Below, one piece after another: positions 36,973 to 39,200 of a stretch of DNA of 64,000 bases. A program made the translations under genes and the position numbers. This DNA is from Treponema pallidum subsp. pallidum str. Nichols (GTDB lineage: Bacteria > Spirochaetota > Spirochaetia > Treponematales > Treponemataceae). The DNA lies in the NCBI RefSeq assembly GCF_000410535.2, contig NC_021490.2, positions 344,501-408,500 on the forward strand, written 5' to 3'. A model generated the notes under the pieces. That model was not told the origin of the DNA, ran no database searches, and saw only the letters and a program-made list of their open reading frames with translations. Every line of letters starts with the position of its first letter. The stretch's first letter is position 1.

Positions 36973-38553
36973 TCATTTCTTTTTACTGAAAAAGCGAAAG
37001 TTAATTTCAGAGAACAGTGGTAGCTCGCGTTCGCGCCGCATTAGCCACTGTGCACTTACCTCTCCGGAGCCGAGCGCCTCGTATACCCTCGTAAAGGCCT
37101 TGAGGTGGTCGGCGCACTCGCTAGCGGCGTACTCGGGGTAGCGACAATGGTTCCCTAAAAGGGGCCAGAACAGCGACTGACACAAAAGCACATCACGTGC
37201 TGCCATGTTCAGTAGGCGTTCGCGAAAGCCGGTGTCGTGTGCAAAGCGCTCTGTGAGGTCGATCATGCGTTCTGTGGTTTTTTGTATTGCAGGATGCATC
37301 CAGTCGTTTGCGCTATTAATAAGCTCATCCGCATAACCTCCCCCCAGTGAAGATCCAAAAAAGGGTTCAATGATTGACACCCCCACTGCGGGGCAGGTGA
37401 GCGCCGCCGTACAGGACACGCGCATTTGCGCGCTTTCTGCAACGGTGCGAAATACGGCTTCAAGCCAATCCATCCCCTCTGCCCATGCAACTCCAAATAG
37501 TGATGCAGGGAATACGCACACCGACATAGCCTCGAAGGGAGCGGTTGCGTGGACTACTTTTTCAAATATTTCTGTCCGATTACGCACGAACGCCCGCGCA
37601 TCAGCGACACACGTGCGTTGCGCTTTTTCTTGCTCATACGGCGTGCCTGAACGGGCCTGGTACAGATACCCAGTAGCCATGCGTTCCTTGTGTGGTTCAA
37701 ATAAAGGGTACAGAGCCTCCTCAGGCAGTATAAACCCAGCATCTTGTTCTGTATTTCCGTACACCGCCTGTGTACAGAAGGAATGCGTGGCGCCATGCAC
37801 TTCTGCAGTGGCGACACGGTCCTTTCCTAAGCACCACAAGCCATTGGACGTCTGTGCAGGCTCAAAGATGCCACGTCGGGGTACGCGAGTGCCAAACAGG
37901 AAACTATGTGTTTCCAATATGGTGTACGAGAATCCGTATGATTTTATAGTGCGCTCAAGCGCTGGTGCATAGCCAAGTTCAGGTAAATAAAAACCGCGGG
38001 GAATTGAGGAAAAATGTTTGCGGTAATTAATAAGCCCCATTTCGATTTGGGCGGATATAGATTCGGGCATGTCTTGGTAGAAGGGTAAGAAACAATTAAC
38101 TGCCGTTGTTGCGAGTAATTCAATGGAACCTGTGCGGAAAAAGTGATTGATGCGTTCAAGGAGTGCCCCATCGCAGTGATCAAAATAATCCCGGTGAGAG
38201 CGAAGAGACCGAAGCACTGCTTCAGCTTGCACGCGCTCTTGGAGACTGTTCCTCAGGCGAATGGCTTCCCGTTCTCCGAATTCGATGAGTGCGTCGAGTG
38301 CACGCCGGTATCGGTCCATAAGCACGCGGTTAGCGAGCATTTCGCACAGAACGGGCCCGATAGCGAGGGAGATGTTAAAAGGAACACGCTCACGTTCGAG
38401 TGTTTCGCATAAGCGGAGTAGGGGGAGGTAGGTATAGGAAATCTCGAGAAAAAAACGGGATTCAGCGAGGAGAGAAGATGCGCCGGCCCCTCGGACGAAG
38501 GGAAGATTACAATCGAGAACAAATGCAAGAGAGTGCACTGGCATTTTCTTCAT
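36973..38553 (-). CDS. GH57/DUF1957 branching-enzyme-like protein, probably catalytically dead
   Basis: The 526-residue protein aligns along its length with GH57 alpha-glucan branching enzymes of the AmyC/TTHA1902 type: start FVLDCNLPFVRG, ELLATTAVNCFLPF, PRGFYLPELGYAPALE, LFGVAWAEG and the end SEINFRF. The nucleophile Glu192 (LPELGY) remains. The general-acid Asp position is Pro349 (FPASLFG in place of FDAELFG), and the His residues of motifs 1 and 2 are Asp14/Asn16 and Asn. It is therefore unlikely to act as a glycosidase. ATG 38553 is preferred over GTG 38574. The DUF4912 gene lies directly upstream on the same strand. Confidence 0.82.
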   Translation of the reverse strand: MKKMPVHSLAFVLDCNLPFVRGAGASSLLAESRFFLEISYTYLPLLRLCETLERERVPFNISLAIGPVLCEMLANRVLMDRYRRALDALIEFGEREAIRLRNSLQERVQAEAVLRSLRSHRDYFDHCDGALLERINHFFRTGSIELLATTAVNCFLPFYQDMPESISAQIEMGLINYRKHFSSIPRGFYLPELGYAPALERTIKSYGFSYTILETHSFLFGTRVPRRGIFEPAQTSNGLWCLGKDRVATAEVHGATHSFCTQAVYGNTEQDAGFILPEEALYPLFEPHKERMATGYLYQARSGTPYEQEKAQRTCVADARAFVRNRTEIFEKVVHATAPFEAMSVCVFPASLFGVAWAEGMDWLEAVFRTVAESAQMRVSCTAALTCPAVGVSIIEPFFGSSLGGGYADELINSANDWMHPAIQKTTERMIDLTERFAHDTGFRERLLNMAARDVLLCQSLFWPLLGNHCRYPEYAASECADHLKAFTRVYEALGSGEVSAQWLMRRERELPLFSEINFRFFSKKK

Positions 38554-38564
38554 GAAGGTCCCAC

Positions 38565-39200
38565 TTATGAGCACACAGGAAGAGACGTGCTTGGGTAGGT
38601 TTCCTCAAGCAGGGGAAGCCCACAGAGGCTGAGAACTTCTGCGCCGGTTGGATCCTCGGGGTTAAGACTCCGTTCTATGACGCTGCGCTGGAGCGTGACA
38701 ACTCTGGATTGAGCAAGGATGCGTTCGCGTTGGAGCATTTTGCAGCAAAGATCTATGCGATTAGCATCGTCGGCCAAGGACAGGTGCACGTAACGCTTTC
38801 TGTCTTTGAGGGGTACATCAATATCGAAGTGGTCGAGCGAGGTGTGCCAGCCATGACCACCGAGGGAGTGCACGCGCAGAAAGAACGACCTAAATTGAGG
38901 ACTCTGGGTGAGTGTGCAAAAGAGTTGCTCGTGGATATCCCAAAAGACAAAGAACCAAAGCGGGTCACGGGCAAGGATATGGATTTCGGTGGTATTGTAG
39001 GCACACGAAGTCCCCTTTGATTCAAGGGACTGGGGAGCGCACGGAGGGTTCAAATCAAGAGCGCTGTGGTAACAATCAAGGATCTCGCCAATGACAAGTC
39101 TTCGATTAAGATCCTCAGGCAAGCAAAGACCGAGCTCATCTGCAAGCGCAAACAGCTCCCCGGTTGATCTTGACTCCAAAAACGACTTAGTGAGCGCCAC
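38565..39200 (-). CDS. DUF4912-type protein, partner of the GH57 protein
   Basis: The 211-residue protein has a short helical N-terminal domain (SFLESRSTGELFALADELGLCLP, a SAP/Rho-N-like piece) and a DUF4912 domain with TEIHILARDPLWFFVFWDIHEQ. In other bacteria DUF4912 genes often sit next to DUF1957/GH57 genes, as here, and a carbohydrate-binding role has been suggested by that context. GTG 39200 follows GGTGGGGTAGGC. It ends 11 bp before the GH57 start. Confidence 0.75.
   Translation of the reverse strand: MALTKSFLESRSTGELFALADELGLCLPEDLNRRLVIGEILDCYHSALDLNPPCAPQSLESKGTSCAYNTTEIHILARDPLWFFVFWDIHEQLFCTLTQSPQFRSFFLRVHSLGGHGWHTSLDHFDIDVPLKDRKRYVHLSLADDANRIDLCCKMLQRERILAQSRVVTLQRSVIERSLNPEDPTGAEVLSLCGLPLLEETYPSTSLPVCS

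Follow-up and report, generated by a model that had tools for sequence, protein, structure and literature searches.

A putative GH57 branching-enzyme-like pseudoenzyme of Treponema pallidum and its DUF4912 partner

AmyC of Thermotoga maritima (TmGBE57, PDB 2b5d) is a GH57 glycogen-branching enzyme, the active site of which comprises the nucleophile E185, the acid/base D349 and the polariser H10, together with the residues W29, W402, F261, W356 and W411 (PMC6616209). In 2018, the name "GBE-like" was given to GH57 proteins that lack catalytic residues, a group of 60 sequences, the analysis of which is deferred in the consulted sections of that report (Martinovicova & Janecek, PMC6037648). A literature search retrieved no work that links pseudoenzymes to GH57, or to T. 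pallidum and glycogen, and the only mention of DUF4912 found was in work on cotton. In T. pallidum, TPANIC_0358 is listed as a GH57 protein and filed under energy metabolism, near an RNA-binding protein (TPANIC_0356) and an acyltransferase (TPANIC_0361), and belongs to the 50 protein genes with the highest transcript level in culture, with an FPKM of 595 compared to 260 in rabbits (PMC8525777). Elsewhere it is annotated as an alpha-amylase or glycosyl hydrolase (PMC5956850, PMC5951579).

Fold and active site of TP0358

The window, which is the entire 64,000-nucleotide stretch analysed from T. pallidum subsp. pallidum str. Nichols (NC_021490.2), contains a GH57-like gene and a DUF4912 gene (Table 1). 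Matched via product name and neighbours, they correspond to TPANIC_0358/TPASS_0358 (TP0358) and TP0359, respectively, and the neighbours of the former agree with the published products of TPANIC_0356 and TPANIC_0361. The stop codon of the DUF4912 gene and the ATG of the GH57-like gene are 11 nt apart; an alternative GTG start of the latter at 38574 overlaps the DUF4912 stop. Translation showed that the GH57-like frame is uninterrupted across 526 codons, and the adjoining DUF4912 partner is likewise intact by translation and Pfam, as the original prediction had stated for both.

Table 1. Coordinates of the GH57-like and DUF4912 genes and of their key residues in the window
Feature	Position	Strand	Remark
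Predicted GH57 branching-enzyme-like pseudoenzyme, 526 aa	36973..38553	-	ATG 38551-38553, stop 36973-36975
DUF4912 partner, 211 aa, GTG start	38565..39200	-	Directly upstream of the GH57-like gene
DUF4912 domain proper, residues 68-176	38673..38999	-	Pfam match
C-terminal tail of the DUF4912 protein, residues 200-211	38568..38603	-	HRQSF-type tail missing
Motif 1, D14-C15-N16 replacing H-A-H	38506..38514	-	AmyC alignment
Motif 2, N153 replacing His146	38095..38097	-	AmyC alignment
E192, nucleophile position, kept	37978..37980	-	Alignments; gone from most sister lineages
P349 replacing acid/base Asp349	37507..37509	-	Alignments
V355-A356 replacing His-Trp after LFG	37486..37491	-	AmyC alignment

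TP0358 has the GH57 fold of a (β/α)7 barrel and a helical bundle, with Pfam matches to Glyco_hydro_57 (PF03065, 8.2e-18) and BE_C (PF09210, 3.1e-28). The AlphaFold2 model, computed from an alignment of 79 homologues, has a pLDDT of 94.2 and a pTM of 0.93. Structural similarity search using Foldseek revealed that the solved structure closest to this model is AmyC, with a TM-score of 0.92 and a sequence identity of 27%. The corresponding phmmer alignment (3e-68) covers residues 11-523 and has no gaps around the motifs. Compared to AmyC, TP0358 has D14 and N16 in place of H10 and H12, N153 in place of H146, P349 in place of D349 and V355-A356 in place of H355-W356, and it keeps E192 at the position of E185. 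This ungapped alignment bears out every substitution listed in the original prediction. The residues at AmyC W29, W402, F261, W356 and W411 are R33, S402, T268, A356 and L411.

Of the features of a branching enzyme, TP0358 thus has the Glu nucleophile on β4, lacks the Asp acid/base on β7, which is P349, and lacks both the His polariser and the aromatic gatekeepers, for which it has D14, R33, S402, L411 and A356. At the sequence level, no other Asp occupies the acid position in the ungapped alignment through strand 343-349, and no acidic residue has become newly fixed in this strand in the relatives. P349 and D14 are common to T. pallidum and its nearest relative L003 (54% identity), and the substitutions are therefore more than chance or sequencing error. 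TP0358 is accordingly a predicted pseudoenzyme, which should be incapable of the two-carboxylate retaining reaction, and the amylase and glycosyl hydrolase labels are unsupported by its active site.

Catalytic loss and erosion of the cleft across Treponematales

Homologues of the GH57-like protein were found in 193 of 197 genomes of the order, sampled at one genome per species, and in 142 of the 144 good-quality ones. The E192/D349 pair is intact in 9 of 90 aligned order members, which show 31 other letter combinations, compared to 35 of 40 outside the order, including all 18 from other classes (Fisher p 5e-18, kinship ignored). Within the order, E is replaced by Q, Y, A, S, F, H, K, L, N, D, G or C, and D by N, P, S, Y, R, T, E or K. 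A quick tree, built without the motif columns and with the mixture off, contains at least 13 changes of catalytic state; the counts carry no direction, and the intact outgroups suggest that the changes are losses.

The original prediction had taken the loss for a T. pallidum event in a reduced genome and expected a contrast with the T. denticola group; neither expectation held. T. putidum (L032/L006), which belongs to the T. denticola group, has Ser at both catalytic sites, and the loss extends through the order in genomes of 2-5 Mb. The inactivation is therefore old and repeated rather than a product of genome reduction, and decay specific to T. pallidum was rejected as an explanation. The order also contains a live control, L040 of family f5, in which neither catalytic residue nor any of the seven scored cleft residues has changed. 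Outside the order, five relatives of the same class (L128, L129, L134, L136 and L140) have lost one catalytic residue, E being replaced by D or Y and D by S, and the GH57/DUF4912 pair tolerates catalytic loss beyond the order too.

Close pairs of relatives' copies that miss a catalytic residue have dN/dS values of 0.04-0.16, and two intact pairs have 0.11 and 0.12 (NG86; some dS saturated). Dead copies in relatives of T. pallidum are thus under purifying selection. The T. pallidum copy itself is off consensus at 5 of 58 conserved positions, the second highest of 47, and its DUF4912 protein at 4 of 22; since the DUF4912 tail is also lost, T. pallidum may have undergone some relaxation.

The extent of erosion differs between families. 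All 18 members of f3/f4 have replaced the nucleophile, 16 by Q and two by H, and keep D349, H355, W29, W402 and W411. Family f5 shows mixed losses. Treponemataceae (f1) retain a median of one among the seven scored cleft residues, and T. pallidum likewise retains one; in this family, W29, W246, F261, W356, W402, W411, H146 and K304 have mostly disappeared, and the residues found there vary. Among the most variable sites of f1 are many at which intact enzymes are near-invariant, and conversely several dozen sites free to vary in the intact enzymes are nearly fixed in f1; E171, R429, F188, P191, F230, F437 and L494 occur in 47 of 47 Treponemataceae. That cleft sites vary while other sites became fixed argues that the selected surface in this family is no longer the glucan cleft. 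Glycan binding, one of the roles suggested in the original prediction, is disfavoured for the old cleft of T. pallidum, given that Treponemataceae have had this cleft erased in its entirety; such binding is plausible for f3/f4.

DUF4912 partner and glycogen context

TP0359 matches DUF4912 (PF16258) at 1.9e-20, with 73.8 bits against a curated cut-off of 29.4. It is predicted to consist of an N-terminal helical domain, which is Rho_N-like, and an FnIII/Ig-like β-sandwich. Rho_N matches were obtained in 9 of 42 DUF4912 relatives (best E 1e-3), and Foldseek with the DUF4912 model returned generic FnIII matches only (E about 3e-4), with no function indicated. In each of the 91 order loci, the gene immediately upstream of the GH57-like gene, and on its strand, encodes DUF4912. 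Together with the dN/dS values of the relatives, this supports the original proposal of a pseudoenzyme under selection for a non-enzymatic role.

In the 11 wide order loci (10 and the window), the pair is always linked, and no other flanking gene family occurs in more than five, revealing no conserved wider operon; the class outgroup L212 has the locus, as a DNA match to L124 shows, but was left out of this comparison. At the class level, the genomes listed for one domain are those listed for the other, and family f7 has neither. Certain other classes carry the two domains without linkage, or just one of them. The C-terminal tails of DUF4912 (loci L003-L092) are clade-specific, of the HRQSF type in Treponemataceae and of the HPSRIL/NPxRIL type in f3/f4. 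The tail motif [HYF]R[QHE][SAL]F is present in 44 of 47 Treponemataceae and in none of 75 others, and is lost in T. pallidum. These tails are possible docking motifs.

Glycogen synthase (PF08323) is present in 188 of the 197 order genomes; it has no match in T. pallidum, which still keeps the GH57-like/DUF4912 pair. GH13 GlgB is above the curated cut-off in none of 42 order genomes, and the full branching-enzyme C-domain is present in none of the 41 non-pallidum ones; G020 has a marginal, partial PF02806 match. Four weak GlgB matches of ~720 aa are GlgX debranching enzymes, and GlgX was confirmed in all four order genomes checked. The order genomes listed each have a single GH57 of branching type. 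Across the order, glycogen synthase is thus general, yet no GH13 branching enzyme exceeds the cut-off and the branching-type GH57 protein is mostly dead. Judged by these profile searches, treponemes that bear glycogen synthase have no branching enzyme that is recognisable as intact. It was also considered whether a GH13 branching enzyme had taken over and thereby caused relaxation; with no GlgB above the cut-off in the 42 order genomes, it is unsupported.

A second GH57 of T. pallidum, of the 4-alpha-glucanotransferase type, is encoded outside the window (L002 313-2214, minus strand; genome about 170.5-172.4 kb). By motif comparison, its nucleophile is apparently lost (E to A). Nearly all of the examined Treponemataceae are degenerate at this position, and several f2/f4 members have kept it.

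Proposed role and comparison with known systems

We propose that TP0358 is probably a non-catalytic scaffold or regulator that acts with DUF4912. To judge from relatives in the class and phylum, the pair would ancestrally have comprised a GH57 branching enzyme with complete catalysis and an accessory subunit of helical and Ig/FnIII-like domains. Catalysis would have been lost repeatedly in Treponematales: f3/f4 may have lost the nucleophile (E to Q or H) and kept the glucan cleft, in a plausible glucan-binding stage, and Treponemataceae may have had the whole cleft erased and other residues fixed. TP0358 and TP0359 would form a two-protein unit, presumably by physical contact, with TP0358 as its structural half, and in T. 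pallidum TP0358 most likely binds protein (TP0359, possibly a third partner), neither making nor binding glycogen. More tentatively, the conversion to a scaffold might have been stepwise, the clade-specific DUF4912 tail might sit in the vacated cleft, and the module might have outlived the glycogen synthase of T. pallidum in a regulatory or structural capacity that has nothing to do with storage sugar. Against the scaffold stand the retention of E192 in T. pallidum and L003, the nine order members that keep both E and D, among them L040 with its full set of scored cleft residues, and the possible relaxation in T. pallidum.

Three other explanations were considered. TP0358 could be a lectin-like pseudoenzyme, the old cleft of which holds maltodextrin or glycogen for sensing or anchoring. 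The f3/f4 proteins, with Q or H for the nucleophile and W29, H355, D349, W402 and W411 kept, do resemble a substrate-trapping mutant, and GlgA is found in other treponemes, as is GlgX in the four that were checked; however, the Treponemataceae cleft residues are mostly lost and variable and no glycogen synthase match was obtained in T. pallidum, making this explanation unlikely. The absence of GlgB above the cut-off from the 41 non-pallidum order genomes, where glycogen synthase is general and GlgX occurs in the four checked, could also mean that the one branching-type GH57 of each listed order genome is still an enzyme, namely the missing branching enzyme of treponemes, working by relocated or substrate-assisted catalysis. 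We consider this hardly credible: both carboxylates and most substrate contacts are gone in many members, the substitutions vary between lineages in a manner that fits no shared alternative chemistry, and the aligned acid-base strand 343-349 has gained no fixed acidic residue. Nor do we favour a functionless, decaying relic, intact in T. pallidum for want of elapsed time, although the species has no GlgA and has lost the DUF4912 tail and several conserved positions. The inactivation is common to a relative at 54% identity and hence old, yet both frames are open; the transcript is among the top 50 in culture, and the relatives' copies are under purifying selection, all of which renders a relic very unlikely. 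A scaffold or regulator that acts with DUF4912 is the explanation we prefer.

A highly transcribed gene of T. pallidum thus carries an amylase or glycosyl hydrolase label that its sequence contradicts. The order offers a natural series from a live enzyme to a cleft-less pseudoenzyme with a conserved partner, which suits the question of how enzymes become scaffolds, and the missing branching enzyme in treponemes with glycogen synthase is a directly testable gap.

Compared to AmyC, TP0358 has a similar full-length fold and domain order. AmyC combines E185, D349, H10, W29, W402 and W356 with measured activity (PMC6616209), whereas TP0358 retains only the nucleophile Glu, E192. The "GBE-like" group, as described in the consulted sections of PMC6037648, includes no named spirochaete and no DUF4912, and both the DUF4912 partner and the graded erosion appear to be new. 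TP0359 is a member of DUF4912 (PF16258), for which the present analysis describes an N-terminal helical domain and a clade-specific C-terminal tail.
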